64,000 bases of DNA from Prosapia bicincta. Its lineage: Eukaryota; Arthropoda; Insecta; Hemiptera; Cercopidae. How positions within the stretch are numbered: the first letter of the stretch is position 1; each line of letters opens with the position of its first letter. Of this stretch, positions 25,691 through 63,630 are shown piece by piece. Below the pieces are notes generated by a model, which made no database searches, was not told the DNA's origin, and saw only the letters and a list, made by a program, of their open reading frames with translations. The stretch covers positions 4,849,001-4,913,000 of the forward strand of contig JBAIZL010000006.1 of the NCBI GenBank assembly GCA_036971475.1, in the 5' to 3' direction. A program made the position numbers and the translations under genes.

Positions 25691-26212
25691 TTTTAAATGT
25701 TAATAAACTTGCCTATAGTAGCACTTACTTATGTTTGCTGAGGACGGCCGTTTCGGGTCATGTGTCCCATTGTCAACTCAGACCGTAACTGATCTCAAGG
25801 TTTACGTAGGTTAGGGTGTTAGGGTGGGGGTGGGATATTATGGTGGTGTAGGTGTATTTTGTGAGTATTAGGAGTTATGATGACAAAAAGTGCGTATGAG
25901 TTGTAATGTAATTGTGTATTGAGTTTGTGTGTATGGTGTAGTTTGAAGTGTCTGTATATTTCGTATTGTTCGGTTGTGTGGCGTTGGTTATTTCTGTGTT
26001 GTTTATGAAGATTTGTAGGTTAGATGTTATGTCTATGTAGTCATGTTTTGTGGAGTTGAGATGATTGGCAAAGTTTGATTGGTAGTTATTGTTTTTTACT
26101 GTTTTTATATGTTCTTGGTAACGTATGTAGAAGGACCTCCCTGTCTGGCCTATGTAAAAACTGGGGCACAAACTGCAAGTTAGTTTGTAAACTCAAGTGG
26201 CGTTGTAAATGT
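25690..26212 (-). pseudogene. PLE family 1, 5'-truncated: GIY-YIG endonuclease and 3' end
   Basis: The frame at 26171-25875 starts CPSFYIGQTGRSFYIRYQEH, the YIG half of a GIY-YIG nuclease with the following conserved Arg. Upstream, about 26205-26172, KLTCSSCPSF-type sequence is present but shifted. The element continues through an untranslated tail to the hammerhead-like terminus at 25738-25781 and the CTATAGTAGCACTTACTT end. PLEs use this nuclease to nick the target. The copy lacks RT and meets a second truncated copy head-to-head at about 26212. Confidence 0.85.
25738..25781 (-). ncRNA. Hammerhead-like ribozyme motif, family 1
   Basis: On the minus strand: stem I CUGAG (25781-25777), core UUGACAAU, short stem II closed by GGG/CCC, GAAA (25754-25751), self-complementary CGGCCG, then UC, then CUCAG (25742-25738) pairing perfectly with stem I. 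This is the order of a type I hammerhead with cleavage expected after the C at 25743. The core differs from CUGANGA at C3 (U) and G8 (A), and has an extra U before stem II. Activity is untested. Confidence 0.55.
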
Positions 26213-26330
26213 CACGTGTACAAACTAACTTGCAGTTCGTGCCCCAGTTTTTACATACGCCAGACAGGGAGTCCTTCTACACATGTTACCAAGAACATAT
26301 AAAAGCACTAAAAAACAATAACTACCATAT
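26213..26330 (+). pseudogene. PLE family 1 fragment, opposite orientation
   Basis: Plus-strand sequence carries the same GIY-YIG segment as the element to its left, inverted: TAACTTGCAGTTCGTGCCCC followed by ACATACGCCAGACAGGGAGT and TTACCAAGAACATATAAAAG. It ends near 26330 in a short TA run. The frame is broken within the YIG block. This is the short arm of an inverted pair. Confidence 0.8.
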
Positions 26331-26380
26331 ATATATTATTGATATTTTACGTTATCCATTGTTTTTCCGTTGCACTGACT

Positions 26381-26548
26381 TTATGAAGTTAACATATTAC
26401 TATTGTAAGTAATTTTATCCACTATTAAGTGCAATGATTTTACCTTGATTCGGCAATGGTCAAGTGGCCGAAAGGCGCCTCAAGGTAAAATCATTGCACT
26501 TAATGGTGGATAAAATTACTTACAATAGTAATATATTAACTTCATATA
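26381..26548. mobile_element. PLE family-2 minimal foldback
   Basis: An almost perfect inverted repeat: TGAAGTTAACATATTACTAT at the left mirrors ATAGTAATATATTAACTTCA at the right, continuing through TCCACYATTAAGTGCAATGA and its complement. The tip of the hairpin is the hammerhead-like motif. The upstream flank GATATTTTACGTTATCCATT...GCACTGACTT and the (TA)n beginning at 26547 also flank other family-2 copies. No coding sequence. Confidence 0.88.
26443..26485 (+). ncRNA. Hammerhead-like ribozyme motif, family 2 (shortened)
   Basis: CCUUGA at the left pairs with UCAAGG at the right. Between them lie UUCGGCAAU, stem II GGUC/GGCC with loop AAGU, GAAA (26470-26473), the perfect palindrome GGCGCC and UC. 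Compared with 53869-53910 the GUGAU/AUCAC part of stem I is deleted, so this copy is probably impaired. Confidence 0.45.
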
Positions 26549-27578
26549 TATATATATATATAAGGGATCCTTGACACCTATCAAAGATTTCAAGACACTT
26601 TCTGTATTCATATATTAATAATAGGCTTATTAATAAGGTACCAAAATACCTTCTGTTCTAATGAGTGTTAAACACTAGTTATATTTAAAGTATCAGCTAC
26701 TATTATTTTAATTACATACAGCTACTTAAAGATTTAATACCTTAAAACCATAGATCTTATGATTTAGTTAATGAAGTAATTGAAAATGCTCTCAAAATGG
26801 AGAAAGATAGAAAGTAGATAAAAATAATATACTCTTCATTATAATAATATATTAACTTTATGTTTAGTTTTAATTTTTAAATTTTCTATAAAATCTGTGA
26901 TCAGGTGACAGTTTATAACTGCAGGGATTACAAGTTATTATCTAAAACTATGCAATTATTTTGATTTGTTTTGGTTGTTGTAATCATTTGTTTTCACTGA
27001 AACAATTTAAAGACCTAAGTAAAAATTATCAACTTACTTAAAATAGTATAAAAATAGTATACTGTCATAGATATGTAGACAACATTCTAATGTTATACAA
27101 TAGCAGCAAAAGCAACTCAAACAACTACACATTTATTTCAACACCATAAACCAAACATATCATTCAAACTTGAAGTAGAATATAATCACAAAACAAACTT
27201 TCTAGGCCTCATAATCACCAAACGTAACAACAAACACAATTTCAAACATCTACAACCATTGACACTTTAAACAGAATAAATCTAATTAGCCAAAACAATG
27301 CAAACATGATGTGTTTAAGCATATTTTACACTATCTAGCTAATATAACCATGCAACAAAAATCACTAGAATAAAGAGTTCAATACAATAAAATACATCAC
27401 CCCCTCCGAACATAAAGCTGCAAGAACACACTAATTGAAAATATACTGAAGAAAATAGAACATAAACAATATCTTGAATTTTGTAGTCTATAATGTTCGG
27501 TGAAACTTAATTTATCACTTTAAAATTAGTTTATTACCATCCGAACTTTAAAATTTGTTAATTTGTAAAAACTTACTG

Positions 27579-27624
27579 AGACAGAACGTTTACGATCGCT
27601 ATGTGGAGATCATCATCAGTGTCT
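27579..27624 (-). ncRNA. Hammerhead ribozyme, canonical core, damaged GAAA
   Basis: Minus strand: stem I AGACA (27624-27620), CUGAUGA (27619-27613), stem II region, then GUAAA instead of GAAA, AACGUU, C, and UGUCU (27583-27579), a perfect stem I partner. The inserted U in GAAA should reduce or abolish activity. This copy confirms the stem I sequence of the family. Confidence 0.65.
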
Positions 27625-27772
27625 TATGCTTGGAGTTGTTGGGTTAAGCGGTGACGGTTTTAAAGAAAGGTTTTCGATAGTATCAAAGAGTATGTGTGAT
27701 TTGTTACTCTTTGATGCTATCGAAAACATACCTTTAAAATCGTCACCGCTTAACCTAACAACTCCAAACACA

Positions 27773-27818
27773 AGCCACTGATGAAGATCGCCACATAGCA
27801 ATCGAAAACGTTCTGTCT
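27773..27818 (+). ncRNA. Hammerhead ribozyme, canonical core (family 4)
   Basis: CUGAUGA at 27778-27784 and GAAA at 27804-27807 flank a stem II that pairs GAU..GC with GC..AUC around CACAUA. Then comes the self-complementary AACGUU, and C27813 as the expected cleavage base. Stem I pairs 27773-27777 (AGCCA) with 27814-27818 (UGUCU) except one C-U mismatch. All catalytic-core bases of the hammerhead are present. The loopless, palindromic stem III is the form known to work as a dimer. Hammerheads in PLEs and foldback/retrozyme-like repeats are established; this copy is read by eye only. Confidence 0.7.
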
Positions 27819-28420
27819 CAGTAAGTTTTTACAAATTTACAAAATTTAAAGTTCTGATAGTCATAAACTAATGGTAAAGTGATTAAATAAATAACACGTT
27901 AAAATAGTCACACTTTTGAGCCACAAAAACAAACCATAAATTCATTTCCATCACATACGACAACAAACATACACACAAAATTGCTTGAATCTTCAGAAAA
28001 TTAATTTATGAATTATCATATACAACAATAAACACTCTTAAATTCAAGACACACAACCCTCTAAACAACAAATACAATCTATGCAGTTTAAACAAAATAA
28101 TATGCAATGACTGCCTCAGCTTTTACTGTTAGATCATTTTAACACAAGATACAAAGAATACATTAACGACAAAAAAACCCAAGTACAGCTACAAAACATA
28201 TATACAAAACACCCTACATAAATTCACAAACATTCAGACTAATTTAATCATTCTACACATACTAAACCGTAGCATAAAACTAACCACTACAGATAAATTT
28301 AAAATACAATATAATTACACAATAACACAAAATGACATGCACGATTTTAAACTACCACACACACTTTGAATCTAACACCACTTTCCAATATGTACTCATT
28401 ACACACTCTGTCCATTAATC

Positions 28421-28642
28421 TCATGCCATTAACCTTTAATGAAAGTCAGCAGTATTAGGTTAGGCTTTGTTAATGAAACAACTATTTTCATTTAGTTCTT
28501 TAAATAATTCTTTATTATATATTTTTGTTTTGAATAAATAAATAAGAGGAAGACAAAGTAGTCATTACTCGTTAGAACATTTTAGAAAAACCCGGAAATA
28601 ATTATGCAAAATTTAAAATACTGTTTTAATCTTATGTTCCAG
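28421..28642. other. No gene recognised
   Basis: Short AT-rich gap between the PLE and the first oxidase exon. No promoter can be identified by eye. Confidence 0.4.
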
Positions 28643-28692
28643 GCTAAGATCAAAAGCAGTAGTGCTTTCTATTAATGGCACCATATATACAG
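28643..28692 (+). CDS. Aldehyde oxidase/XDH-like gene, exon 1 of those found
   Basis: AG at 28641-28642 and GT at 28693 bound 50 nt reading LRSKAVVLSINGTIYT. SINGTIYT matches the F(S/T)INGxxY strand that opens the N-terminal [2Fe-2S] domain. It ends in phase 1, and its last G plus TG of the next exon makes Val, giving the expected VNG...V order. The initiator Met is not within this exon; it is either in a missed short exon upstream or lost. Donor GTTTGT is weak. Confidence 0.75.
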
Positions 28693-28740
28693 GTTTGTAA
28701 ATAATAATAATGTGTGTGTGTGTGTGTGTGTGAGTGTGTG

Positions 28741-29172
28741 ACTTTAATGTACTTAAACAAGAATCTTACTTGGTATATTTTGCGAGTCAACTTTCACAAA
28801 ATGAGAGCACATAATTATTAGTTCTCGAAAGTGGACTTGCAATTATACCAAGTAAATTACACTTTTGGTATCTACTTGCCAAAAAAATCACTACTTACTT
28901 ATATTTTTTAGCAGTCATGTTTCACACTAGGTCACTAGGTCAGTGCATTGTTCAGTGCTGTGAGTCAAGGACAACACTATTCTATGACTCTCAGCATTGA
29001 ACAATGCACTGTTCTAGTATGAAACTTGTCTGCTGAAAAATATCAGTAAGAAATGTTTCTTTTGCCAAGTTGATGAAAAAAAGTGTAATTTCTTAGAAAA
29101 ACCTCAAGATGTACAACACAAAGGCAGCATGCATATACCAAGTAAGGTTCTGGTTTAAGTACATTAGAGTGT
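28741..29172. mobile_element. PLE family-3 foldback
   Basis: Inverted arms run from ACTTTAATGTACTTAAACAA to TTTAAGTACATTAGAGT, with TTACTTGGTATA mirrored by TATACCAAGTAA. Nearer the centre are the family-3 ends: TTTAGCAGTCATGTTTCACA on the left (minus) and the plus-strand motif at 28992-29035. (TG)n at about 28711-28740 abuts the left end. It lies in intron 1 of the oxidase gene. Confidence 0.82.
28992..29035 (+). ncRNA. Hammerhead-like motif, family 3
   Basis: Stem I CAGCA (28992-28996) pairs perfectly with UGCUG (29031-29035). Between are UUGAACAAU, a weakened stem II (GCAC...GUAU), GAAA (29021-29024), CUUG and UC. The stem III block is no longer self-complementary, so this copy is likely inactive, but the layout is clear. 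Confidence 0.4.
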
Positions 29173-29179
29173 AAACTTT

Positions 29180-29930
29180 AAGTGAATACAAAAAAACAGT
29201 GTTGTAAAGTTATATATATATATATATAAAACAGGCCTATATACAGACCTATATATACATTTACCATTTCTCATCCTGACACTGGCCTGTAAGACAATTT
29301 AAATTATTTTATTTTTAATTTAAAATTCTTCATTTTTCCATTTCATGTAATATAGTACTTTTATTTAAAGTTTACAATTATAAAATTTAACTAATTAAAA
29401 AAAATATTGTTTCCTTATATTGTTTTAAGATTTGACTGTTCAAAATTTTTAAATAATTTTTATGTCTAAAATTATTAAAAAATACGTCAATTTCATGAAT
29501 TACAGCCTCTATTTTTTTATTACAATGTTATTACTATGCCCAAATTCTAATTGATATTTGGCTGCAACCACCACGATGAAAAGGTTCCCATTGGTTCCTG
29601 GCCTGCTTAGCTATCCACTTAACACATGAGTCACTCTATCTTAGTCTGTACAAACCACACCCCATCCCCTCCCCCTACTCTTCCATAGTAGCAAATCTTA
29701 TCTGCTAGATAATGCACACCCATTGATTACCATATGCTAATGATCCATGCAAATATAGTTCTGCATCCAAAACCTAACCTGGTAGGATCCAGACACTAAC
29801 CATGTAGGATTCAGAACTTGAAAGGCCACCCTCTATTGGAAAGATGAGGTATCTGCTTCATGACACACACCATGTGCCAAAAAGGCGATATAACTACAGA
29901 TCTTTGAAGACATGAGACATATAATCAATC
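29180..29930. other. Intron, no gene recognised
   Basis: AT-rich intronic sequence with a (TA)n run at about 29211-29226. No other feature. Confidence 0.5.
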
Positions 29931-29939
29931 TTATTTCAA

Positions 29940-30405
29940 AACGCAGTCCCTGTATAATGAGAGATTACTTCTTACACAGTCCCTGTATAATGAGAGATTA
30001 CTCTTTATACAGACCCTGTATAATGATAGATTATTTTTTATACAGTCCCTGTATAATGAGAGATTACCCTTTATACAGTCCCTGTATAATGAGAGATTAC
30101 TCTTTATACAGTCCCTGGATAATGAGAGATTACTCTTCACACTGTCCCTGTATATTGAGAGATTACTCTTTATACAGTCCCTGTATAATGATAGATTACT
30201 CCTTACACAGTCCCTGGATAATGAGAGATTACTCTTTATACAGTCCCTGTATAATGAGAGATTATTTTTTATACGGTCCTTGTATAATGAGAGATTACTC
30301 TTTATACAGTCCCTGTATAATAAGAGATTACTCTTTATACAGTTCCTGTATATTGGAAGATTACTCTTCACACTGTCCCTGTATAGTGAGAGATACATTT
30401 TATGC
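29940..30405. repeat. 33-bp minisatellite (about 14 copies)
   Basis: Tandem units of 33 bp built on CAGTCCCTGTATAATGAGAG followed by ATTACTCTTTATA. Because 33 is a multiple of three, the array is open on both strands (175 aa plus, 155 aa minus), each a repeating peptide. There is no reason to think either is translated. It ends about 90 bp before an oxidase exon. Confidence 0.93.
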
Positions 30406-30496
30406 AGTCCCTGCGCATTCTATATACACTTATGTGTAAAATCTATATAGTTTTGTAACTATTTTAGTTTTTCTAATATTAAATGAAATTTTGCAG

Positions 30497-30666
30497 TGTC
30501 AGATGAAGTGCCGGCTGATACTTCCTTAAACACCTTTATCTGGGAGTATGCAAACTTACGTGGAACCAAATTCATGTGTCTGGAAGGAGGATGTGGGGTG
30601 TGCCTAGTCAGTCTTCAGTTCAGGGATCCCATCACCCTTCAGAAGAAGAATATTTCTGTTAATTCA
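30497..30666 (+). CDS. Aldehyde oxidase/XDH-like gene, [2Fe-2S] exon
   Basis: TTTTGCAG precedes and GTGAGT follows. The exon reads SDEVPADTSLNTFIWEYA, then GTKFMCLEGGCGVCLVSL and NISVNS. FMC-LEGG-C-GV-C holds three of the four Cys ligands of the plant-ferredoxin-type cluster; the fourth is the first residue of the next exon. DTSLNTFI and GTKFMCLEGGCG are closer to arthropod aldehyde oxidases than to classic XDH. It starts with two bases of a split Val codon and ends in phase 0. No lesion in this exon. The cluster passes electrons from the molybdenum centre toward FAD. Confidence 0.93.
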
Positions 30667-32076
30667 GTGAGTAGTACTGACTTTTTTACACTAAACATTG
30701 ATGTATTTTTTTACACTAATGTGCATTACACCAAATTTGTGTGGTGTTATAACTACTTAAATATTTGTTTTATTGCTGTTATGATTACCCTTTTATTAAA
30801 AATAATCCCTTCTTTCTATTTATCACCCTCTCTGTCCCACACACAAATTCACACTTATACACCTACACACAGACCAATGATAAAGCGTGTTTGCACTTTC
30901 CATATTCAATGTTTTTTTGAATGGGCTTTTAAGCTCTTTACATATTTGGATTTGTTATAATTTTAAATTAATTTTATTAATAAGGTTTTAATTTTAAATC
31001 TGGTTTTACAATTAGTTTGTGCTAATATAGACAGTAATGTTAGCTAATTAATTTTTTCATTATATTTTTGTAATGTATCAAATAATTCATTGTTCCTTAT
31101 GAACCGAAGGTAGTATTTTAACGGTTATCTCTTTTTGGGTAGACTACTCGTTTAAACTTCAGTTAAACTTTCTTTTCTTCAGTTAAAATAATTCTTTCTA
31201 TTTACATACTTGTCCTCTCTTTGAGGGTCTAACTCCTTTGCTTAAGATATTTCAATAATTTATATGCGGGGGGGGGCAGCACTAACAGTATGCAGTATAA
31301 GGACGAGCTCAAGGCTTGGGTAAACAATACAGTTTAATGTTTTCATAATGTAAGAATACAGTTTACATTTTTGAAACGAGACGATGGAGAACAATGTTTT
31401 GATGTAGGGAAAGGCAGAAAAATTTACAAGTTGAATAGCAAATATAAATCTTCTACTCAACCTTAATTTTAATGCCTATGATTACTAACCATTACACTCA
31501 TTGCTAATGGGACTTATTACTTCTGTCTGTACAAGTAGGCAAATAATACTATGTGCTCAACACTAACAGTTGTGTGTCTTGTGGCCATTTTGTAAATAAA
31601 TCTTTCAGAACTCCTCTCCTTTCCTCTGAAGTTATCAAAGCAGTTACTAACTAACAAACTGCAATCCTAAGAGTCAGCTTTAAACCATCTTAACATGATT
31701 GTGTGGGTAGTGAACTTTTATGGAGGCCGCACATTATTCTCAATTTAGGTATTCATTTATTACAAGTAATAATTTTCACATTGTAAGTAAACTTAGTGAG
31801 CTGAAAAGTCACATTGAAATTCTTTTATTCTACCAAAGAGTAAATCAAGAACCTTTATGTAGTCAAGTGTTATTTTTTCTTTTTAGGTATTATATCTTTT
31901 CCAAATATTCAATTAAAAAAAATAATTTCCAATATTTAGGCAAAATTTTCTTCAGTATTATTTTTTAACCAAATAATATCATCAGACAGCTCTAAAATAA
32001 TTAAATGAAAACAATATAATTAGATACCATATGAAAGTTTGTGTTTTTGGTTTTATAATTGCATATGTTCTTTCAG
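30667..32076. other. Intron, no further gene recognised
   Basis: No element was identified. It contains a G8 run at about 31268-31275 and a CA-rich stretch near 30840-30875. Confidence 0.6.
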
Positions 32077-32237
32077 TGTTTGTTTCCTGTATTTTCATGT
32101 CATGGAATGGCAATCACTACTACAGAAGGGGTCGGCAGCAAGAAGACTGGCTATGATAAGATACAAAAGAGGCTTGCCAACTTCAGCAGCACACAGTGTG
32201 GGTTCTGCTCTCCTGGTATGGTTATGAATTTATACAG
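32077..32237 (+). CDS. Aldehyde oxidase/XDH-like gene, second [2Fe-2S] exon
   Basis: Starting right after TTCTTTCAG it reads CLFPVFSCHGMAITTTEGVG, and later FSSTQCGFCSPGMVMNLY. The first Cys completes cluster one. HGMAITTTEGVG is the family's C-x5-H...VTTVEG block, and QCGFCSPG gives two ligands of the second cluster. It ends with AG of a split codon at GTGTGT and joins the next exon as Ser (LYSLINE, compare MYSLL). No lesion. Confidence 0.93.
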
Positions 32238-33073
32238 GTGTGTAACCCTTAAAATTGTTGTTTTCGCTTTCCTTTACTGAGTGAAACATCTAGAATACCA
32301 GGTGCTTATGAAAGAAAGAGATGCCATATATTAAAAAAGATATTTCTGAAAATCAACTCAACTCAAGTACTGATGTTGATCTGAACTTATCTTCAACCTT
32401 GGCCAACAATTTTTAATTTCATATCTTTTCTATATCAATTCCATACATGAATTTTTACTCTTTTGTATTACTTTATTAATAATATTTCACTGTTTTGTAA
32501 TTCTACCTGTCAACCATGAAAGTAAGTGATACATAATCTTATCTGAGTCTTAAATCCATTTAAAATTATTCAAAAATTAATCACAAAAACATGGATATTA
32601 TTGTTATATGCAGCAATATACAAGTTATATGCAACAAACACTAACAAGTTGAAATACGTTGTAATACAGTAGTAGAGCATCTAAACAAGCAATACACATA
32701 ACATACAGAATGACACACGAAATTAATATATAAAATAAAATTATTTAAATAAAATGAATATAATAATAAAACAAATACTACACAGTAATTCATAATACAT
32801 AATTGATGTGTTTTTTTTATTACTTAATCATTAGTACAAGTATTAACTTCATCAATTTTGTTTTAATTAGAGAAGATATCGTGCATTTGCCTAGCATATT
32901 TATTTATTTTTTAAAAACTGGTTTATTGCTCACCAAATTATTAAAACCAAATGCCATGTTTAAAACACTTTGAAAGTTGACTCACGTTGCACTGCTTTTA
33001 CTGCCAATAAACAATAATTTATAGAAATAATATTAACTGAACTGTGATTTCATTATGAGTACATCTATTTCAG
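32238..33073. other. Intron, no further gene recognised
   Basis: AT-rich; no repeats or coding signal seen. Confidence 0.6.
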
Positions 33074-33469: not shown

Positions 33470-34650
33470 AGCGTTTCACACTAGATCAGTACATTGTTCA
33501 ATGCTATGAGTTACATGCAAGACTTTTGCTCAGATGTCTTATATTATCGTGAATCTGTGGTATTTTGGTATTCTGTGATGTTTTGTTGCTCATAGAGGGG
33601 TTGTTAATTTTGTGTTGAAATATAGTCTTTGATTGGTAATATGTTTTATCGTCAAGAATGTGTTTTGGTTGGTTTTGTGGTGTTTGTATATTTTGAAGTT
33701 TTCTGTTGTTTAGTTTATTGTTTCTCTTGGTGAATTGTAGAATTTTCTAATTTTATCAATGTTGGTGTATGTGTGGAGCAACTGTATATGTTAGTGCATG
33801 TGTGTACGTTGTGTATATGTATAGCAAAATTTGATTTGATTGTGTCTTTTTTATGTCCATTATATATTCCTTGTATCTTGTGTTAAAGTTTCTTTCTGTT
33901 AACCTTTCTAGAAGGTGGGGCAGTCATTGCATGTGATCTTGTATACTCTTGCTTTATTGTGTTTGTTTTGGAGTGCTTTTGTGTTGTGTAGGTGTTTTTT
34001 GGTTGTGTTGGAATGTCTAAAGCAGACTTTGTACTTGAGTTTTTTGAATGATGAAGCTATTTTTTGTGATGTATTGTGATAAATTAATTTTATGTAATAT
34101 TGTTTTTTGTTAATGTGTTATGTTGTTGTTTGTTTTCCAATCTCTTTTATTATTTGTGATGTGTATTGGGTTATGTGTTTGTTGTTTTTCGGTATTGTAT
34201 TGTTTATCAGGGCATGTTTGTACCCGATTCTTTGGGGAAGGTATTTTATAGTGTTGAGTTCATTCATTCCGTCTTCATTGTTCATGGGTAATAATTAGGT
34301 TGTATATCATGGAGTGGAAGGTGCCATGTTTTCTTGTTGTATGGAGTGGTTGTATTGTGTATACCTCTGTTTGCGGGGGTGGGTTTTCCTTATATTTTAA
34401 ATGTGTATTTGTTGTCTTGTTTTTTCTCAGACCTTGATTGCATTCTGTTGTTCTGTTTCCAGTGTGAACTTTATATTGTTGTGTTTATCATTTATGTATT
34501 TTTGGAAGGTATGGAACTGTCTTTTATTGTGTTTGAATGCAATTAAAATGTCATCTACATATCTATTCCATTACATTATTTTATAGGTTGTTCTTTGTTA
34601 TTATGTGTGTGCATTTATTTATGTTACTTTTTATTTGTGTGTGGATTTTT
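33470..34650 (-). pseudogene. Penelope-like element, family 3, degraded
   Basis: On the minus strand, RYVDDILIAFKHNKRQFHTF near 34570-34510 is RT motif C with its downstream helix, followed by FTLETEQQNA. At about 33960-33905 VYKITCNDCPTF is the GIY half of the endonuclease, with stops inside. A family-3 terminal motif lies at 33470-33540, and an inverted partial terminus lies beyond the RT at 34661-34760. It sits in the intron after the CRCTGYRPI exon. Confidence 0.8.
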
Positions 34651-34652: not shown

Positions 34653-36289
34653 TTGTTTGGTCAGTGGCTATTAGACAATGTACTGATCTAGTTGAATGTA
34701 CTGAAATGCATCTGCTTAAAACCATTTGAAAGTAGTAGTTTTTTTGCCAAGTGTAATCAATAAGTATATATTAAAAAAAAGCCTCAACATGTACAGCCTA
34801 AGTAAAAATATATATAGTATGAAAATAAATATTTTGGATTAATTTGAATTCTTGTTTATAGCAAGAATCAATTTTTACTCTGGAAACATCATGTTGTTTT
34901 TTTAGTTAGACAAATGATAGTAATAATCGGAGAAAAAAGCAGACAGATAAATAATACTCTCTCATTAATAAATATTTTTAAACATAAAAATATGTTTATT
35001 CTATTCTATGAAGGCTCTATTCTTCACTGCACAAGTGTTTTTGTAATCCTTTTTTTCAAGTTTCTGCTTTGTCGTGGAATATGATTTTTCTGCTGTAATC
35101 TTTTGAAATGAACTGTTTTGTTCTTTGGGAGTGTTCTAATCACTTTCTTTTCTAGGTCTTGCTATATTTTTGTATTCCTTCTATCCTTATGGTTTTCAAC
35201 GATTTAACATGCCTATTTTTTCTCAAAAGCTTCATTGTGTAAGTAATAGCTTCTGTTCTGTCCATATTTCTGTACCACACCATGTAACAACATTTATAAT
35301 AAATAATTTACAGGTTAACTAAATATCATTACATTGATGTGAAATTAGTTTTGTAATTAGACCTAAAATTTAATTCATTTTATTGTTGAAAGTGTAAAAA
35401 AATTAAGTGCAAATGAAATATCAATTGTGCTAAGAATTTTGCTAGATTTTCAGTCATCATTAAAAATAATGTTATACGTTTATTATTGTTGATTTATTAT
35501 TATTGGTGCACTTGGCTCTTGGTAAGACCCACGACTCACAGCATTAAACAATGCACTGCTCTAGTGTGAAACGTGTCTCCTGAAAAATATCAGTAAGTAG
35601 TGTTTTTTATGCCAAGTGTATCAATGAAAATAATTATTAAAAACATCTTAAGATGTACAACTTAAAAGCTGGAAATGTTTAACTATTGAAGAGTTTTGTA
35701 ATACATAAGAAATAAGGGTTGAAAGCATGTCCTTATAAATCTAAATTTTAAAACACAGAGTTACAAATAATATTCAATAAAATTTCATGAAATAAATAAT
35801 AAGAAGCTAAGAGAATGTGTTTTTTCTTTTTACCTAAGAGGCCTGGGAGCGATGTGATGTCCCATGTTAATGTTAGGAACATTTTCTCAGCTCTGGAGAA
35901 ACTTACAGCTCTGAAATTGCATCCAGTGCTTTATAAGTTCATTGTATAACACTTTATGAATTTATATTTTATTAATATGGTCTGATTAATTTTAAAAAAA
36001 ATTCAAGATGCATTAAAAACTGTCTAAAATTTTATATTTATTTATATGCTAAATAAATTACTACACGAAAATTTGTTATTATTAGGCCCTACACCATGGA
36101 AAGTTGCGTATGCAGTGGGTTAAGACCTATTGAGAATTTGATAATATAATCTTAAACAGTTTAGTAGAAAATCTCCCTTAAGTAGGGAAAAATTTAATCT
36201 TTGATAAAATCTGAAAAACTAAGAATATGCTCAGTATATTCCAGTTTCAAAGTCTGAACGATTATTGTAATCGTTTTCAAGGTTTTTTT
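34653..36289. repeat. 1.64-kb tandem duplication, copy 1
   Basis: Matches 36290-37926 at an offset of 1637 bp with only scattered substitutions and one- or two-base indels. Both copies begin in a T-run followed by TTTGGTCAGTGGCTATTAG and end at TTCAAGGTTTTTTTT. The unit contains two family-3 terminal motifs (34661-34760; 35540-35605). No protein-coding part was recognised. Confidence 0.95.
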
Positions 36290-37926
36290 TTGTTTGGTCA
36301 GTGGCTATTAGACAATGCACTGATCTAGTTGAATGTACTGAAATGCATCTGCTTAAAACCATTTGGAAGTAGTAGTTTTTTTGCCAAGTGTAATCAATAA
36401 GTATATATTAAAAAAAAAGGCCTCAAGATGTACAGCCTAAGTAAAAATATGTATAGTATGAAAATAAATATTTTGGATTAATTTGAATTCTTGTTTATAG
36501 CAAGAATCAATTTTTACTCTGGAAACATCATGTTGTTTTTTTAGTTAGACAAATGAGAGTAATAATTGGAGAAAAAAGCAGACAGATAAATAATACTCTC
36601 TCATTAATAAATATTTTTAAACATAAAAATATGTTTATTCTATTCTATGAAGGCTCTATTCTTCACTGCACAAGTGTTTTTGTAATCCTTTTTTTCAAGT
36701 TTCTGCTTTGTCGCGGAATATGATTTTTCTGCTGTAATCTTTTGAAATGAACTGTTTTGTTCTTTGGGAGTGTTCTAATCACTTTCTTTTCTAGGTCTTG
36801 CTATATTTTTGTATTCCTTCTATCCTTATGGTTTTCAACGATTTAACATGCCTATTTTTTCTCAAAAGCTTCATTGTGTAAGTAATAGCTTCTGTTCTGT
36901 CCATATTTCTGTACCACACCATGTAACAACATTTACAATAAATAATTTACAGGTTAACTAAATATCATTACATTGATGTGAAATTAGTTTTGTAATTAGA
37001 CCTAAAATTTAATTCATTTTATTGTTGAAAGTGTAAAAAAATTAACTGCAAATGAAATATCAATTGTGCTAAGAATTTTTCTAGATTTTCAGTCATCATT
37101 AAAAATAATGTTATATGTTTATTATTGTTGATTTATTATTATTGATGCACTTGGCCCTTGGTAAGACCCACAACTCGCAGCATTAAACAATGCACTGCTC
37201 TAGTGTGAAACGTGTCTCCTGAAAAATATCAGTAAGTAGTGTTTTTTATGCCAAGTGTATCAATGAAAATAATTATTAAAAACATCTTAAGATGTACAAC
37301 TTAAAAGCTGGAAATGTTTAACTATTGAAGAGTTTTGTAATACATAAGAAATAAGGGTTGAAAGCATGTCCTTATAAATATAAATTTTAAAACACAGAGT
37401 TACAAATAATATTCAATAAAATTTCATGAAATAAATAATAAGAAGCTAAGAGAATGTGTTTTTCTTTTTACTTAAGAGGCCCGGGAGCGATGTGATGTCC
37501 CATGTTAATGTTAGGAACATTTTCTCAGCTCTGGAGAAACTTACAGCTCTGAAATTGCATCCAGTGCTTTATAAGTTCATTGTATAACACTTTATGAATT
37601 TATATTTTATTAATATGGTCTGATTAATTTTTAAAAAAATTCAAGATGCATTAAAAACTGTCTAAAATTTTATATTTATTTATATGCTAAATAAATTACT
37701 ACACGAAAATTTGTTATTATTAGGCCCTACACCATGGAAAGTTGCGTATGCAGTGGGTTAAGACCTATTGAGAATTTGATAATATAACCTTAAACAGTTT
37801 AGTAGAAAATCTCCCTTAAGTAGGGAAAAATTTAATCTTTGATAAAATCTGAAAAACTAAGAATATGCTCAGTATATTCCAGTTTCAAAGTCTGAACGAT
37901 TATTGTAATCGTCTTCAAGGTTTTTT
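36290..37926. repeat. 1.64-kb tandem duplication, copy 2
   Basis: Second copy of the unit. Junctions lie in poly-T, consistent with slippage or unequal exchange between T-runs. Near identity implies a recent event compared with the decayed elements around it. Confidence 0.95.
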
Positions 37927-40010: not shown

Positions 40011-40540
40011 TAACCTACAGGAATCCGTTCTAAGCAGGAACAACTCTGCTGGTGTTTACAAACTAACTTGGAGTATGTGCCCCAGTTTTTACATTGGCCA
40101 GACAGGGGAGTAATTTTACACACGCTACCAAAAACACATAAAATCACTACGAAACAAAAACACCCAATCAAATTTCGCCAAACATCACATATCCACAAAT
40201 CATGACTACACAAACATAGCATCCAACCTACAAATTCTTCATAAGCAAAACAAAAATAACTAACAATCCACAACTGAACAATCCACATTCACTTTTCGAC
40301 ATCGTAACTCTTAATACTCACCAAAATAAATACACCCACATCCCCACTCTAATATCCCAACCCCACCCCAACCTACAAAAACCTTGAGATCAGTTACGGT
40401 CTGAGTTGACAATGAGACACGTCTCCCGAAAAGGCCATCCTCAATAATTATAAGTAAGTACTACTATAGGCAATTTGTAAAATATTATAAATGTTTTAGG
40501 GAAAACTGGTAGCTTATGTGAAGATGGAATCAACAAATAT
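40010..40540 (+). pseudogene. PLE family 1, 5'-truncated: GIY-YIG and 3' end
   Basis: MCPSFYIGQTGE near 40074-40110 followed by FYTRYQKHIKSLRNKN and NLQIL gives the endonuclease C-terminal half, with a stop straight after YIGQTGE. An AC-rich tail leads to the hammerhead-like terminus (40401-40444) and the common outer end near 40540. RT is missing. Confidence 0.85.
40401..40444 (+). ncRNA. Hammerhead-like motif, family 1
   Basis: Stem I CUGAG against CUCAA (four pairs), core UUGACAAU (40406-40413), a clean five-pair stem II GAGAC/GUCUC with loop AC, then CC, GAAA (40428-40431), AGGCCA, and UC at 40438-40439. Stem II is the best of the family-1 copies; stem III is weakened by an A-A mismatch. 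Confidence 0.5.
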
Positions 40541-51156: not shown

Positions 51157-51402
51157 GTTAATAAATTACCAATTTTGAGTAATTATATCCACCATTAAGT
51201 GCAATAATTTTACCTTGAGTGATGAGGCACCTTTCGGTCTTTGACCATTGTCGAATCACTGATTGTTCTCTGCTGTGGATGCTATGTCCGTGAAGCCGGT
51301 GTACAATGGTCAAAGACCGAAAGGTGCCTCATCACTCAAGGTAAAATTATTGCACTTAATGGTGGATAAAATTACTCAAAATTGGTAATTTATTAACTTC
51401 AT
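51152..51402. mobile_element. PLE family-2 foldback, short form
   Basis: ATGAAGTTAATAAATTACCA is mirrored at the right end, and the mirror continues inward through GGCACCTTTCGGTC. The minus-strand arm has a complete hammerhead-like motif (51219-51259). The plus-strand arm is missing its 5' stem I strand. The centre holds only GTGGATGCTATGTCCGTG. Downstream comes the shared tail AAAGTCAGTGCAACGGAAAA, then (TA)n. Confidence 0.9.
51219..51259 (-). ncRNA. Hammerhead-like motif, family 2
   Basis: Minus strand: GUGAU (51259-51255), core UCGACAAU, stem II GGUC/GACC, GAAA, GGUGCC, UC, AUCAC (51223-51219). All family-2 elements are intact. Confidence 0.5.
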
Positions 51403-51539: not shown

Positions 51540-51580
51540 GTGATGAGGCACCTTTCGGTCGTTGACCATTATCGAATCAC
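51540..51580 (-). ncRNA. Hammerhead-like motif, family 2
   Basis: Minus-strand copy at the left end of the palindrome: GUGAU/AUCAC stem I, core UCGAUAAU (C7 to U, the variable position in the hammerhead core), stem II, GAAA, GGUGCC, UC. Confidence 0.48.
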
Positions 51581-52480
51581 TGATGTTTCTCTGCTATGGA
51601 TGCTCGGTCCGTGAAGCCGGTGTTTGTTACGCACACTTTTTCTTGATCTGTGTGTATGATATTTCTATATAGTATGTCTTCTGTATATGTTGTTTGTAGA
51701 TTCATTAAGTTGTTGTGTATGTTTTTATAAATGTGGTATTTTTCTAGTGAGTTTAGTTCTATTGGGTTGTTATTTATTTCCAGTATGGTTAGGTTATTTT
51801 CGTAATTTGTTATTTCGTGTTTATGGGATATTAGGTGTGCTGCAACATTTGATACTTTAGAATTTTTGTTTTTGAATGCTCTATAATGTTCTTCAAATCT
51901 TATTTTAAATGTTCTGGTTGTTTTTCCTATGTAAAAAGCGTTACAGTTGTTGCATCTGATTTTGTAAATTCCAGATAGGTTATGTTTTTCTGAATTTGTT
52001 ATGTGGTTTGTGTTATTAAGATATTTTATTATTTTGTTGTTTGGTTTGTAAGTTGGAGTGTAGTATTCTTTGTTGTATATATTTGTTATTTTTTCTATTT
52101 TGTTATTGGTGTATTTATATTTTAGGTAGATTTTTTTATTTTTATTATTTTCGTGTTCCGGTTGTAGTGTTGTGTTGAGGTTAGGTTTTTTTGTGAATTT
52201 ATTGTATATATTTTTTATAATGTGTTTGTTGTATCCATTTTCTATTGCTATTTTTGTAATGTTATCTAATTCTTCATTTAATTTTTGTTTGTTATCCTGT
52301 GTGTATTTTATTGCTTTATTTATCATGTTACTGTAAGTGTTAATTTTGTGTGTCCAGGGGTGGTTAGATTTGTAGTGTATTGTGGTGTTGTTGGAAGTAG
52401 GTTTCCTGTATACTGTAGTTTCTATTTTATTATCATTTATATTTAAAGTAATGTCGAGGAAGTTGATTGTTCTATTTGTT
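51577..52480 (-). CDS. PLE family 2: RT thumb, linker and GIY-YIG endonuclease (left arm)
   Basis: Reading inward from the palindrome centre: TNRTINFLDITLNINDNKI then TTVYRKPTSNNTTIHY, the FLDxxxxR...YRKPT block after the RT palm, followed by SNHPWTHKINTYSNMINKA. After a Lys/Asn-rich linker come SGIYKIRCNNCNAFYIGKTT (GIY...YIG with 11 residues between) and FKIRFEEHYRA with the conserved Arg. The frame stays open to about 51577. Residues upstream of TNRTI are read from the other arm and are not native. No RT active site, so not autonomous, but the endonuclease looks intact. Confidence 0.85.
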
Positions 52481-52488
52481 TCTGTTTC

Positions 52489-53302
52489 AACAAATAGAAC
52501 AATCAACTTCCTCGACATTACTTTAAATATAAATGATAATAAAATAGAAACTACAGTATACAGGAAACCTACTTCCAACAACACCACAATACACTACAAA
52601 TCTAACCACCCCTGGACACACAAAATTAACACTTACAGTAACATGATAAATAAAGCAATAAAATACACACAGGATAACAAACAAAAATTAAATGAAGAAT
52701 TAGATAACATTACAAAAATAGCAATAGAAAATGGATACAACAAACACATTATAAAAAATATATACAATAAATTCACAAAAAAACCTAACCTCAACACAAC
52801 ACTACAACCGGAACACGAAAATAATAAAAATAAAAAAATCTACCTAAAATATAAATACACCAATAACAAAATAGAAAAAATAACAAATATATACAACAAA
52901 GAATACTACACTCCAACTTACAAACCAAACAACAAAATAATAAAATATCTTAATAACACAAACCACATAACAAATTCAGAAAAACATAACCTATCAGGAA
53001 TTTACAAAATCACATGCAACAACTGTAACGCTTTTTACATAGGAAAAACAACCAGAACATTTAAAATAAGATTTGAAGAACATTATAGAGCATTCAAAAA
53101 CAAAAATTCTAAAGTATCAAATGTTGCAGCACACCTAATATCCCATAAACACAAAATAACAAATTACGAAAATAACCTAACCATACTGGAAATAAATAAC
53201 AACCCAATAGAACTAAACTCACTAGAAAAATACCACATTTATAAAAACATACACAACAACTTAATGAATCTACAAACAACATATACAGAAGACATACTAT
53301 AA
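52489..53302 (+). CDS. PLE family 2: RT thumb, linker and GIY-YIG endonuclease (right arm)
   Basis: Same protein as the left arm, read on the plus strand: TNRTINFLDITLNIND first, SGIYKITCNNCNAFYIGKTT near 53000-53060, then VAAHLISHKHKITNYENN. It differs from the left arm by a few residues (T for R after YKI; K for E in SHKHK). A TAA at 53300-53302 ends it 12 codons or so before the left copy. The coding strand is A-rich and T-poor like other PLEs here. Confidence 0.87.
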
Positions 53303-53394
53303 AGAAATATCATACACACAGATCAAGAAAAAGTGCGCGTAACGTCAACAAACACCGGCTTCACGGACCGAGCATCCATAGCAGAGAAACATCA

Positions 53395-53435
53395 GTGATT
53401 CGACAATGGTCAACGATCGAAAGGTGCCTCATCAC
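53395..53435 (+). ncRNA. Hammerhead-like motif, family 2
   Basis: GUGAU (53395-53399), UCGACAAU, stem II GGUC/GAUC with loop AAC, GAAA (53419-53422), GGUGCC, UC (53429-53430), AUCAC (53431-53435). Stem I is perfect and extends into the long inverted repeat. Confidence 0.52.
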
Positions 53436-53643: not shown

Positions 53644-53685
53644 GTGATGAGGCACCTTTCGGTCAATTGACCATTGTCGAATCAC
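53644..53685 (-). ncRNA. Hammerhead-like motif, family 2
   Basis: Minus-strand mirror of the motif at 53869-53910, with all elements intact: stem I GUGAU/AUCAC, core UCGACAAU, stem II GGUC/GACC, GAAA, GGUGCC, UC. Confidence 0.52.
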
Positions 53686-53868
53686 TGATGTTTTTCTGTT
53701 GTAGATATTCGGTCTGTGAAGTTGACACAACAATTTAATGAATCTACAAACAACATATACAGAAGACATACTATATAGAAATATCATACACACAGATCAA
53801 GAAAAAGTGCGCGTAACGTCAACAAACACCAACTTCACAGACCGAATATCTACAACAGAAAAACATCA

Positions 53869-53910
53869 GTGATTCGACAATGGTCAATTGACCGAAAGGT
53901 GCCTCATCAC
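53869..53910 (+). ncRNA. Hammerhead-like motif, family 2 (best copy)
   Basis: GUGAU (53869-53873) / AUCAC (53906-53910) stem I, core UCGACAAU (53874-53881), stem II GGUC/GACC with loop AAUU, GAAA (53894-53897), near-palindromic GGUGCC (one G-U when self-paired), then UC (53904-53905), with cleavage expected after C53905. The core departs from CUGANGA at positions 3, 4 and 8. It may have another role, such as a protein or priming site. Confidence 0.55.
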
Positions 53911-56937: not shown

Positions 56938-57007
<70 letters not shown>

Positions 57008-57051
57008 TTGATATTTAACGTTATCCATTGTTTTTCCGTTGCACTGACTTT

Positions 57052-57157
57052 ATGAAGTTAATATATTACTATTGTAAGTAATTTTATCCACCATAGGTAA
57101 AATTATTGCACTTAATGGTGGATAAAATTACTTACAATAGTAATATATTAACTTCAT
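57052..57157. mobile_element. PLE family-2 minimal foldback without ribozyme core
   Basis: ATGAAGTTAATATATTACTA is mirrored exactly at the right. The arms meet at CCACC/GGTGG with only part of the inner sequence, and the hammerhead-like tip is lost. The left flank carries the shared tail TTAACGTTATCCATTGTTTT; both sides are (TA)n. Confidence 0.88.
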
Positions 57158-57276
57158 ATATATATATATATATATATATAGATTTTTTGGACTAGGAGAC
57201 TGACAGAGACCCAAACGTCCACACCAAAAATCTTTTCACCGATCCACCACAAATTTGGTACAAGCAACCTCCCAAC

Positions 57277-57768
57277 TTGAATAACATCCTAGTACATCCT
57301 AAACTACCAGACCCTGATGCAGAGAAACCACACAAACTTCCTCATGGCTCCTTCCCATGCAATAGACCTAGATGCAAGACGTGTCCAATACACCCCACAG
57401 CAAATAGTTTCAACAGCCAAACAACAAAAATGGTCTTCAAAATACAGGGTCATCATAATTGTACATCGAAAAATGTCATATACCAGCTACAATGTAAACT
57501 TTGCTCAGCACAGTACATAGGCCTGACCACGGATGGTCTGAATATTAGAATGAATGGCCACAGACATGATGTTAAAATTATGAATATGGATAGACCAACA
57601 GCTCAACATGCTGCGAGTCACAACATCACAACTTTTGATGACTGCTATACCACAAAAATAATTAAATCACTCCCCTCTGATTGCAATCCCTCAGAACTGA
57701 GAAGGTGGGAACTATCATACCAGTGGTATACCAAGTCCAGAGAATCCCCTAACCTCAACATCAGATAA
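57277..57768 (+). CDS. GIY-YIG endonuclease fragment of a second PLE clade
   Basis: The frame is open before 57277 (WYKQPPNLNNILVHPKLP covers the join), a linker seen in Neptune/Poseidon-like PLEs, so there is no true start. Then CNRPRCKTCPIH (C-x5-C-x2-C...H, zinc-binding-like), SKNVIYQLQCKLCSAQYIGL (IY...YIG; the G of GIY is replaced by V), RMNGHRHDVK with the conserved Arg, and ELRRWELSYQW at the end. Complete to its stop. It differs clearly from the other PLE endonucleases in the window. Nicks target DNA by family inference. Confidence 0.85.
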   Translation: MNNILVHPKLPDPDAEKPHKLPHGSFPCNRPRCKTCPIHPTANSFNSQTTKMVFKIQGHHNCTSKNVIYQLQCKLCSAQYIGLTTDGLNIRMNGHRHDVKIMNMDRPTAQHAASHNITTFDDCYTTKIIKSLPSDCNPSELRRWELSYQWYTKSRESPNLNIR

Positions 57769-57976
57769 ATCCATTCATTTTTTTCCCCCTCCAAATAGCC
57801 TTATCTCTTTCCCCTGACAGACTTATATAAACTATAATCACTCATATGTTCAAGGAAACAATATATATATATCTTTAATCTGTGCATCTGTGACATCTGA
57901 TTTCTACTCTACACAATCTGTGATTACAATTATTTTATTTCATTCTCTCATATTTCTTTTTGTGTTTTCTCTTCGA

Positions 57977-58013
57977 TTGACAAAGACCACTGTGTGGTTG
58001 AAATATATCATTG
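57977..58013 (+). ncRNA. Hammerhead-like remnant in the GIY-YIG element
   Basis: UUGACAA, then a stable stem (ACCAC/GUGGU, loop UGU), GAAA (58000-58003), self-complementary AUAUAU sharing its first A with GAAA, then C58009. Same order as the PLE families above, but no convincing stem I, so low confidence. Confidence 0.3.
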
Positions 58014-58098
58014 TTTAAGTGCTTTTATGTGTTTCTATTTCAAGACTACAGAGTGGACTCTTACCAAGGTAAGTCTGTCAGTCTCCTAGTCCAAAAAA

Positions 58099-61150
<3,052 letters not shown>

Positions 61151-61159
61151 TTCTAACAT

Positions 61160-62690
61160 TTGTTGATTCCATCTTCACGTGAGCTACTAGTAATCACTAA
61201 ACACTTTTAAATGTTTTAAAAACTTGCCTATAGTAGCACTTACTTTGTTTGTTGAGGACGGCCGTTTCAGGAGATGTGTCCCTTTGTCAACTCAGACCGT
61301 AACTGATCTCAAGGTTTACGTAGGTTATGGTGGGGTGGGATATTTTGGTGATGTGGGTGTATTTTGTGTGTATTAGGAGTTATATGTCAAAAAGTGCTTG
61401 TGAGTTGTAATGTAATTGTGTATTGAGTATGTGTGTAGGGTGTAGTTTGAAGTGCCTGTATATATCGTATTGTTCGGTTGTGTAGCGTTGGTTATTTCTG
61501 TGTTGTTTATGAAGATTTGTAGGTTAGATGTTATGTCTATGTAGTCATGTTTTGTGGAGTTGAGATGATCGGCGAAGTTTGATTGGTAGTTATTGTTTTT
61601 TAGTGCTTTTATATGTTCTTGGTAACGTGTGTAGAATGACCTCCCTGTCTGGCCTATGTAAAAACTGGGGCATGAACTGCAAGTTAGTTTGTAAACTCCA
61701 GTGGTGTTGTAAATGTTGTTGATTTTGTTGTTGAGTTTAAATTGTTTGTTGAGAGTGTTGTGTGTGGAGTAAGCTATTTTGTAGTTGTATTTTTATAATG
61801 TGCTGGTTAGATTGTGGGTTTTGGATGATCTGTATGGTATTGATAAGTATTTTATGGGATTGTCATCTTGTGTGTTTGTATTTGGGTTATTATGTTTACT
61901 TTTTAGGCGGCTGTATAATTTGTCAATCATTGTTGGGTTGTATCCGTTCGTTTGTGCTATATATTTTATGGTGTTTAACTCCTGGTAGTTTTTATCTTTG
62001 TCTAGCGGTGTTTTAAGCAGGCGATATATCATGGTGTTCTAAGCAGCTAGTTTATGTTGGTGTGGGTGGTTTGAGGAACTGTGTATGGTCGTATTAGTAC
62101 TGGTGGGTTTTCGGTATATGTTGAATTTATGTGTTTGTTTGTCTGTTCGTTTTATTGTGAGGTCTAAGAAGTTGAGGGAGTTTAGTTGTTCTGTTTCGAT
62201 GGTGTATGTTAGTTTAGGGTGTATGGAATTTAGGTGTTTTAGAAATATGTGTGCTCTGTGTGTGTTGCCTTTATATAATGTTATGATGTCGTCAACGTAT
62301 CTGTACCAGTAAATTATGTTATCTGAGTATTTATTGTTGTGTAAAATGTGGTTTTGTTCAATATAGTGTATGAATATTTCTGCTAAGATGCTAGCTATGG
62401 GGGAGCCCATCGGTAGTCCATCTTTTTGGTTGTAGAATGTATTATTGTAGGTGAAGTAATTTTGAGATGTGATTAATCTTGTGAGGTGGATGATTTCGTC
62501 AATGTGTGTATGTGGTGTATTTGTGTCTATTAGCATGTTTTTGAGATGTCGATGGTTTCTGGAATGGGGATGTTTGTATATAGATTTGATATATCAAAAG
62601 GGACTAAGGTGGAATTGTGTGAGATATTTACGTTTTTTATTTTAAAAAGGAACTGGAAAAAATACTGATGATGACTACTGAAGATTTATT
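61160..62690 (-). pseudogene. PLE family 1, longest copy: RT, linker and GIY-YIG
   Basis: Reading on the minus strand: motif A PFDISNLYTNIPIPE near 62610-62565, a frameshift, then motif B (LPMGSPIASILAEIFIHYIE) and motif C (YWYRYVDDIITLYKGN) in the frame 62536-62039, and LNFLDLTIKRT with YRKPTSTNTTIH. An in-frame TAG at 62041-62039 and TAA at 61795-61793 interrupt an otherwise continuous frame that goes on to GVYKLTCSSCPSFYIGQTGR and the end of the nuclease near 61380. The 3' tail carries the hammerhead-like motif and ends near 61160. The 5' end is truncated within RT. Few lesions: a comparatively young insertion. Confidence 0.92.
61252..61295 (-). ncRNA. Hammerhead-like motif, family 1
   Basis: Minus strand: CUGAG (61295-61291), UUGACAAA, stem II region, GAAA (61268-61265), perfect palindrome CGGCCG, UC, then CUCAA, four of five pairs with stem I. 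It lies 3' of the GIY-YIG ORF in a coding PLE copy, which fixes its position within the element. Confidence 0.5.
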
Positions 62691-62813
62691 TCCCTTAAAA
62701 TGTTAATACAATCACAATGTTTTATTTTATGGCAAGATACGAACACCTCCATTGTTTTTTTTTTTTTTTGTGGCTACACCATTAGGTTTTTATTTTAATA
62801 TTTTCCTTGATAG

Positions 62814-62979
62814 TTTGACTATTCTAATTGAAGTTGAAGTTCAACATGAAAAAGCAGTAAGACATTTTTCTAAAACCTCTAACCAAGGTCTGATTAGGGT
62901 CCATTCTAAAACGGTTTATGACCTTTCTTTCTTCAATCCCATTTACCGAAGTTCAGCCATAACTCTAGTTATTTCTAAG
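62814..62979 (+). CDS. Exon-like open segment, unrecognised
   Basis: It follows a T-rich tract ending CTTGATAG and stops at AAG/GTATAA. It reads LTILIEVEVQHEKAVRHFSK, GLIRVHSK and YDLSFFNPIYRSSAITLVIS. It is not the next oxidase block expected after RTYK (MPRAQNAHA). The composition is protein-like, unlike the surrounding TE debris. It could be an exon of another gene, or TE-derived. Confidence 0.3.
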
Positions 62980-63339
62980 GTATAATTAAATTCTAAGTTA
63001 TACTTTGTTAAGTATTAAATCATTCAAATTGTAATAGTTTTTAGTTTTCTGTTAGTTCCTTGTTAGGTTAACCAATATTTTTTTATGATCTGTATTTTAA
63101 AAAAACTTTTTTCTAAGTAAATAGCTCTAAACAGTCTTAAGTTTAACATTGAACAATTACTTTTCATGTAGTTAGCTTCAACAATATTGTAAATAATCCA
63201 CCTTCACATGTAATTAGCATAATGAATTCATAGGTTTTAAATATTGTATCAATTCTAACTATGTAATTAGCTTTAAGATAGATTTAAGAACACTGTTTTT
63301 GTCAGGTTAAAATAAATACGCATTAATTACACTTGTTTT

Positions 63340-63630
63340 TATTATCTTGTCAAAAAAAACCCACTACTTACTGATTTATTCAGCAGACGTGTTTCACGCT
63401 AAGTCAGCACATTTTTCAATGCTGTGAATTACTGACAAGACTGTTTGTCAGGTTTGTTGTGTTGTATTTTACACACCACAGAACAAAAATACACCACAGA
63501 CTCACATCAACACAACACACCTGAGCAACAGTCTTGTCAGTAATTCACAGCATTGAAAAATGTGCTACCTAGCGCAAAACGAGCCTGCTGAATAAATCAG
63601 TGTGTAGTGGTTTTTTTGCCAAGATAATAC
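63340..63630. mobile_element. PLE family-3 foldback
   Basis: Inverted arms: CCACTACTTACTGATTTATT mirrors AATAAATCAGTGTGTAGTGG, and GAATTACTGACAAGACTG mirrors CAGTCTTGTCAGTAATTC. The centre (about 63450-63525) is a further imperfect inverted stretch (GGTTTGTTGTGTTG / CAACACAACACACC). Motifs: minus 63381-63424 (good), plus 63548-63590 (GAAA lost). Confidence 0.9.
63381..63424 (-). ncRNA. Hammerhead-like motif, family 3 (best copy)
   Basis: Minus strand: stem I CAGCA/UGCUG (perfect), core UUGAAAAAU, stem II GUGCU/AGCGU with wobble pairs, GAAA, CACG, UC. It keeps the shared architecture; the core has A in place of the C found in other copies. Confidence 0.48.

Follow-up and report, generated by a model that had tools for sequence, protein, structure and literature searches.

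Penelope-like elements (PLEs) carry minimal hammerhead ribozymes that lack helix III and may cleave as dimers (PMC6155905, PMC7761336). As far as the accessible parts of the literature go, these type I motifs are located in the pseudo-long terminal repeats (pseudo-LTRs) of the elements and have no true stem III (Cervera and de la Pena 2014; Lunse et al. 2017). For natural hammerheads it was reported in 2011 that C3 and G8 of the core can covary to U3 and A8, and that ribozymes with the U3-A8 pair are active in vitro (Perreault et al. 2011, PMC3088659). In PAc, a PLE from Anolis, the open reading frame (ORF) begins where stem II begins, and the RNA is cut 26 nucleotides (nt) downstream of the start codon (PMC11167929). 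Here we analysed a 64-kb stretch of the Prosapia bicincta genome (contig JBAIZL010000006.1, positions 4,849,001 to 4,913,000), referred to as the window, from within which every copy count given below is taken. It contains several families (F1 to F5) of a hammerhead-like block, and we consider it likely that they represent hammerhead ribozymes of the minimal type I, located in the pseudo-LTRs of a number of related PLEs, which would cleave as dimers.

The window motifs share with the minimal hammerheads described for PLEs the pseudo-LTR site, the lack of a true stem III, a self-complementary block suited to dimer formation and, in most copies, GAAA and UH. They differ from them in that F1 to F3 carry U3-A8 for C3-G8 and F2 has C4, although Lunse et al. 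2017 may list such cores. The joint replacement of C3 and G8 in F1 to F3 is the same as in the natural U3-A8 hammerheads of PMC3088659; whereas the accessible text of that paper speaks of 'several hammerhead ribozyme examples', here all full copies of F1 to F3 have it, and a C3-G8 family is located beside these three PLE families. Like PAc, F1a and F2 possess an AUG, formed by A9-U-G10.1, and the cut is predicted 25-28 nt from it; unlike F1 to F3, PAc has C3 and G8.

Layout and core of the motif families

Reading the window sequence we found the F1, F2 and F3 blocks at the positions and on the strands that the original prediction had given for their best copies (F1a, F2b and F3a), and in the order it had described, i.e. 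a 5-bp stem I strand, the core, stem II, GAAA, a self-complementary block, UC and the stem I partner. Some details had to be revised: the core U(U/C)GA(A)CAAU had been claimed for all three families, but in the named F3 copy (63381-63424) the core is UUGAAAAAU, and the block, self-complementary in F1a and F2, is only partly so in this F3 copy. BLAST within the window added several copies of each of these three families, and reading from coordinates gave 15 full copies in all (three F1, five F2, five F3 and two F5). Partial or degenerate copies (23864 minus, 45575 plus, 26446 plus, 51303 plus, 33473 minus, 28910 minus and 56477 plus) and five units of a tandem array at 12273-12664 were left out of this number. 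Pair counts were taken from coordinates because the MAFFT alignments were faulty, one misaligning F3 and F5 against the other families and another placing the 3' arms unevenly. The copies are as follows, EN denoting the PLE endonuclease:

25738-25781, minus strand: F1a, variant hammerhead; stem I CUGAG/CUCAG, core UUGACAA+U, stem II GGG/CCC, GAAA, palindrome ACGGCCGU, predicted cut after UC
61252-61295, minus strand: F1b, copy ~140 nt downstream of PLE EN remnant 61436-61717
40401-40444, plus strand: F1c, copy ~90 nt downstream of PLE EN remnant 40033-40311
53644-53685, minus strand: F2a, in a foldback as inverted partner of F2b
53869-53910, plus strand: F2b, variant hammerhead; stem I GUGAU/AUCAC, core UCGACAA+U, palindrome AGGUGCCU
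51219-51259, minus strand: F2c, copy
51540-51580, minus strand: F2d, copy 75 nt downstream of an EN remnant
53395-53435, plus strand: F2e, copy 81 nt downstream of an EN remnant
26446-26482, plus strand: F2f, partial copy
51303-51335, plus strand: F2g, partial copy
63381-63424, minus strand: F3a; stem I CAGCA/UGCUG, core UUGA(A)AAA+U, GAAA, UC
63548-63590, plus strand: F3b, inverted partner of F3a; CC for UC, CAAA for GAAA
28992-29035, plus strand: F3c; stem I CAGCA/UGCUG, core UUGA(A)CAA+U
33473-33510, minus strand: F3d, partial copy ~400 nt downstream of EN remnant 33902-33964
35539-35582, plus strand: F3e, copy; single stem I mismatch, A for G5
37178-37221, plus strand: F3f, copy; single stem I mismatch, A for G5
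57972-58013, plus strand: F4, weak candidate 207 nt downstream of EN remnant 57457-57765
27579-27624, minus strand: F5a, canonical core CUGAUGA+U; stem I AGACA/UGUCU, palindrome AACGUU, GUAA for GAAA
27773-27818, plus strand: F5b, canonical core CUGAUGA+A; GAAA, palindrome AACGUU, single stem I mismatch

F4 comprises UUGACAA, a 6-bp stem II, GAAA, AUAUAU and UC, its stem I having just 4 bp in a shifted register.

U3 and A8 are present in all 13 full copies of F1 to F3 and C3-G8 in both F5 copies, a mixed pair occurring in none of the 15, which agrees with the proposal that U3-A8 takes the place of C3-G8 in families 1-3. The F5 copies, one in each arm of the foldback 27500-27897, combine the arrangement seen in families 1-3 with a canonical core; a C precedes the stem I 3' arm, and stem II spans six positions, one of them mismatched in each arm. 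As F5 exhibits the same design with C3-G8, U3-A8 in families 1-3 is most plausibly a replacement of C3-G8 in which pairing was preserved. When six 3-8 pairs were tried, U-A and C-G alone scored at least 18 in the window, G-C, A-U, C-A and U-G giving no such match. The alternation of C3-G8 and U3-A8 within one window is the strongest argument for regarding families 1-3 as hammerheads.

The strict consensus C3 U4 G5 A6 N7 G8 A9 is matched by F5 (CUGAUGA in both copies) and not by F1 to F3. When published natural variants are allowed (Watson-Crick pair 3-8, G5, A6, A9, G12 A13 A14, A15.1-U16.1 and H17) the families conform overall, namely F1 in three of three copies, F2 in five of five (but with C4), F5 in one of two (F5a has U13) and F3 in two of five, both carrying an insertion after A6; A replaces G5 in F3e and F3f, and F3b has C12. 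In all 15 copies one additional base separates A9 from the G with which stem II begins; in 13 of them it is a U, giving A9-U-G10.1.

Pairing, chance expectation and covariance models

Stem I covaries between the families, as had been proposed: in one representative each of F1, F2, F3 and F5 20 of 20 cells are paired, as compared to at most 11 of 20 when the 3' arm is slid by 1 to 4 nt and at most 12 of 20 in nine full re-pairings of each family with the arm of another. Over the 15 full copies 70 of 75 cells are paired, the outermost pair being broken in two of three F1 copies and an inner pair in two of five F3 copies. Stem II, judged by eye, has at least 3 bp in F1a, F2 and F5, is weaker, with G-U, in F3 and imperfect in F1c; the helix, originally described for all families, is thus mostly found, but is more variable than stated. 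Among seven stem III blocks tested those of F1a, F2, F3e, F5 and F4 are fully self-pairing (G-U allowed), and in F3a and F3c four of six positions self-pair. Two-strand folding of ten RNAs gave a hammerhead dimer with a continuous stem III as predicted minimum for F1a and F2c.

In the mechanism that we propose, stem III is reduced to the short self-complementary block, and a lone copy would be expected to be a weak ribozyme. Two copies, located on one tandem transcript or on two transcripts, would pair via this block, forming a continuous stem III, and each core would then cut after the UC preceding the stem I 3' strand, generating 2',3'-cyclic phosphate and 5'-hydroxyl ends. Families 1-3 have U3-A8 in place of the core pair C3-G8, with pairing retained, and family 5 retains C3-G8. 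The layout, the covariation of stem I between families, the alternation at the 3-8 pair and the association with PLE EN genes are direct observations; that the RNAs cleave as dimers, at the predicted site, and thereby divide tandem PLE transcripts into units is inferred. In the window the copies are arranged as inverted pairs, as single copies and in one degenerate tandem array (12273-12664).

Descriptors and score rules were drawn up after the sequences had been seen, and the expectations that follow are to be read with this in mind. A strict variant-core descriptor matched 6 sites in the window compared to 0.04 per shuffled window (100 shuffles), and its strict canonical counterpart matched no site in the 64 kb. 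A general hammerhead score allowing C3-G8 or U3-A8 gave 9 entries of at least 19 at 8 loci, compared to 0.08 per shuffle (12 shuffles), and all of these entries are copies of families 1, 2, 3 or 5. The window has seven U-A matches of at least 18, all scoring at least 20.1, whereas 1.03 Mb of control DNA contained 10 such matches with a best score of 19.0 and no match of the C-G form at this threshold. A loose descriptor applied to the 99 loci kept from the RT alignment search described below (1.03 Mb) found 5 matches, all with UU rather than UC and none in L020, a PLE-like locus described below.

Standard models had been suspected of missing the motif, and indeed the Rfam 15 hammerhead models gave no match when run over the window, whether the gathering threshold or a limit of E 10 was applied, and none on short segments containing F2b, F1a or the F5 pair. 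As the canonical F5 copies were missed as well, the failure is not attributable to the U3-A8 core; the reduced stem III together with mutations of the copies is the more likely cause. Rfam microRNA matches were rejected, as they score below the gathering thresholds and coincide with simple repeats and foldbacks. A covariance model built from F1 and F2 recovered the full F1 and F2 copies plus some partial ones, and produced eight further matches at E 0.75 to 6 and, with default filters, one match in the 1.03 Mb of control DNA (E 2.6).

Penelope-like element context

Remnants of PLE reverse transcriptase (RT) and EN are distributed across the window, as identified by tblastn with environmental PLE proteins, and the two database relatives with a named organism are from Blattella and Trypoxylus, both insects. 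We counted nine EN remnants, including two short ones (33902-33964, 21 residues; 53726-53773, 16 residues, 100%); a weak match of 17 residues at 26216-26266, plus strand, was left out. Six of the nine have a same-strand F1 or F2 copy 75 to 190 nt downstream (EN end 25971 for F1a, 40311 for F1c, 51655 for F2d, 53314 for F2e, 53773 for F2b and 61436 for F1b). This is in line with the claim that the motif sits at PLE ends, six of nine remnants being followed by a same-strand copy within 200 nt, and we therefore assign the motifs to PLE pseudo-LTRs. For F3 the link to PLE ends is weak (one EN remnant, ~400 nt), and F5 is positioned upstream of EN remnant 28070-28306. Three of the remnants are the following:

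51655-52593, minus strand: PLE EN (GIY-YIG) reading frame, upstream of F2d
52376-53314, plus strand: PLE EN (GIY-YIG) reading frame, broken near its end, upstream of F2e
61436-62676, minus strand: PLE RT and EN remnant, upstream of F1b; RVT_1 E 2.2e-8

The EN frame preceding F2d terminates at a TGA within stem I, and the frame preceding F2e, which has one earlier interruption, terminates likewise.

The blocks had originally been assigned to 'PLE/foldback families'. The PLE part of this assignment stands; the foldbacks are best read as the inverted pseudo-LTRs usual in PLEs, rather than as a separate element class, according to the accessible text of PMC3846280, which also describes an optional PLE 'tail'. 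Some F2 copies extend at least 40 nt past the point where others enter (TA)n, an extension that recalls this tail. Inverted pairs of at least 30 nt number 969 in the window. The region 51626-53343 is a near-perfect 855-nt palindrome (99%, 8 nt between the arms) with the PLE EN region head to head, bounded on both sides by family 2 motifs; it may have arisen through PLE insertion or represent an artefact of the assembly. At 57191-58199 a different PLE EN remnant lies between (TA)n tracts together with the F4 block and a possible inverted 17-bp end piece (E 0.05). The tandem array at 12273-12664, plus strand (85-bp unit, 4.6 copies, 96% matches), is built on the family 1 block, has lost GAAA and contains GGACGGCCGTCC, a 12-nt palindrome; it looks like a young satellite derived from a PLE pseudo-LTR.

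Outside the window, a search of viral contigs with PLE proteins yielded no confirmed relative, and exact motif patterns matched none of the viral contigs. An RT alignment search returned 19 viral-contig loci and 83 prokaryote-genome loci (80 kept), which we regard as bacterial RTs for the most part, with a single PLE-like fragment, L020, among them. The latter is on a contig filed under a bacterial metagenome-assembled genome (Pseudogulbenkiania); it is a PLE fragment of eukaryote type in which one frame resembles RT and another GIY-YIG, and is probably host contamination. Further features of the window are a frame at 30487-30960, plus strand, with similarity to a 2Fe-2S domain (Fer2; its 19.7 bits fall short of the Pfam cut-off, 21), which may be an exon of a gene of the xanthine dehydrogenase or aldehyde oxidase type, and a large tandem array at 4401-9458 (129-bp unit, 39.5 copies), part of which was also detected as 259 bp.

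Alternative readings and meaning

Several observations weigh against dimer-cleaving hammerheads at PLE ends. The core departs from the conserved one by C at U4 in F2 (five of five copies) and by an extra base after A6 in F3 (five of five), an insertion linked to low hammerhead activity in the accessible text of PMC3088659. The stem I covariation comes from differences among just four families, three of the five stem I pairs are common to F1 and F2, and no compensatory stem I change was seen within any family among the 15 full copies, such changes being found between families only. Swapping the F1/F2 arms alone, or the F3/F5 arms alone, still pairs 16 of 20 cells because these arms are partly alike, and F1 and F3 show upstream similarity. 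The covariance model from F1 and F2 finds neither F3 nor F5 in the window up to E 10, and the link between these groups thus rests on hand-made rules. For eight of the ten folded RNAs the predicted minimum is not the hammerhead dimer, the F2b dimer being predicted to pair via a palindromic stem II instead; with two of ten folds giving the hammerhead dimer, folding energy alone leaves the mechanism unsettled. Three of the nine EN remnants have no clear copy within 300 nt: one is followed by the partial F3d at ~400 nt, one by the weak F4 at 207 nt, and for 28070-28306, plus strand, the nearest downstream copy is 686 nt away. The RT remnant 14629-15543, plus strand, which has no EN part, is without a nearby copy among those found by BLAST. 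Finally, the Anolis PLE hammerhead was cut only when its protein was added, and it was dispensable for insertion in vitro (PMC11167929).

Broken pairs or core changes in F1b, F1c, F3b, F3e, F3f, F5a and F5b, together with C4 in F2, the extra base after A6 in F3 and the 85-bp array without GAAA, are in line with the blocks being relics of canonical PLE hammerheads, their changed cores being (nearly) inactive and their resemblance reflecting drift and shared ancestry. This reading, a sub-case of the hammerhead reading with respect to origin and its rival with respect to function, is possible rather than probable, given that the 3-8 pair is constant per family in the full copies (13 U-A, 2 C-G, 0 mixed) and that stem I pairs exactly in one copy of each of four families despite differing sequences. 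Chance, or an artefact of inverted repeats, might be suspected in a foldback-rich window with 969 inverted pairs, all the more as loose rules give 5 matches in 1.03 Mb of unrelated DNA and the U-A mode 10 of at least 18. Yet both stem I arms are located within one foldback arm rather than spanning the arms, shuffles lead one to expect 0.04 to 0.08 matches per window, the control DNA does not exceed 19.0 for U-A and has no C-G match whereas all window U-A matches reach at least 20.1, and the five loose control matches carry UU, not UC. Shuffles and control DNA thus contradict this explanation, which we consider highly improbable.

The block might also have been kept as a binding site for the PLE protein, as RNA template end or as translation start, the hammerhead shape being inherited. 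Such a role would fit the AUG at A9-U-G10.1 in 13 of 15 copies, the GTAAG found 2-10 nt past stem I in 9 of 15 copies (F1, F3 and F5; 0.012 expected; F2 has GTAAAA), and the Anolis PLE, the insertion RNA of which includes the first 172 nt of an ORF that begins at stem II (PMC11167929). However, it leaves the conserved GAAA, the UC and the sequence-changing stem I pairing unexplained, and the AUG frames close after 3 to 13 codons in F1a, F2b, F2c and F3c, which disfavours a simple start-codon role; we regard it as unlikely. More speculative still is the idea that the core doubles as an expression switch, A9-U-G10.1 serving as start codon and GTAAG as 5' splice site, so that cleavage would compete with translation and splicing, and U3-A8 would be an allowed second core solution kept across families. 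PLEs are reported to retain introns (PMC3846280, accessible in part). The readings overlap, as a relic is still a hammerhead by descent and a second role is compatible with cleavage.

Dimer-cleaving minimal hammerheads remain our preferred reading, but the suggestion that they may represent an undescribed variant is for the most part not borne out: the U3-A8 swap has been in print since 2011 (PMC3088659), and PLE hammerheads without stem III are established, as the accessible parts of PMC6155905 and PMC7761336 document. What may be new is the combination of U3-A8 throughout three PLE families, C4 in F2, the base after A6 in F3 and the additional base following A9, which in 13 of 15 copies completes an AUG. 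We did not find this combination in the literature consulted, although Lunse et al. 2017 and Cervera and de la Pena 2014 may contain it.

That PLE families lying next to each other alternate between C3-G8 and U3-A8 provides natural evidence for the importance of the 3-8 pair in hammerheads lacking stem III, and the families of the window constitute matched ribozyme pairs for comparison at the bench. As the Rfam models overlook the PLE hammerheads here, those with a canonical core included, counts in animal genomes that are based on these models may be too low.

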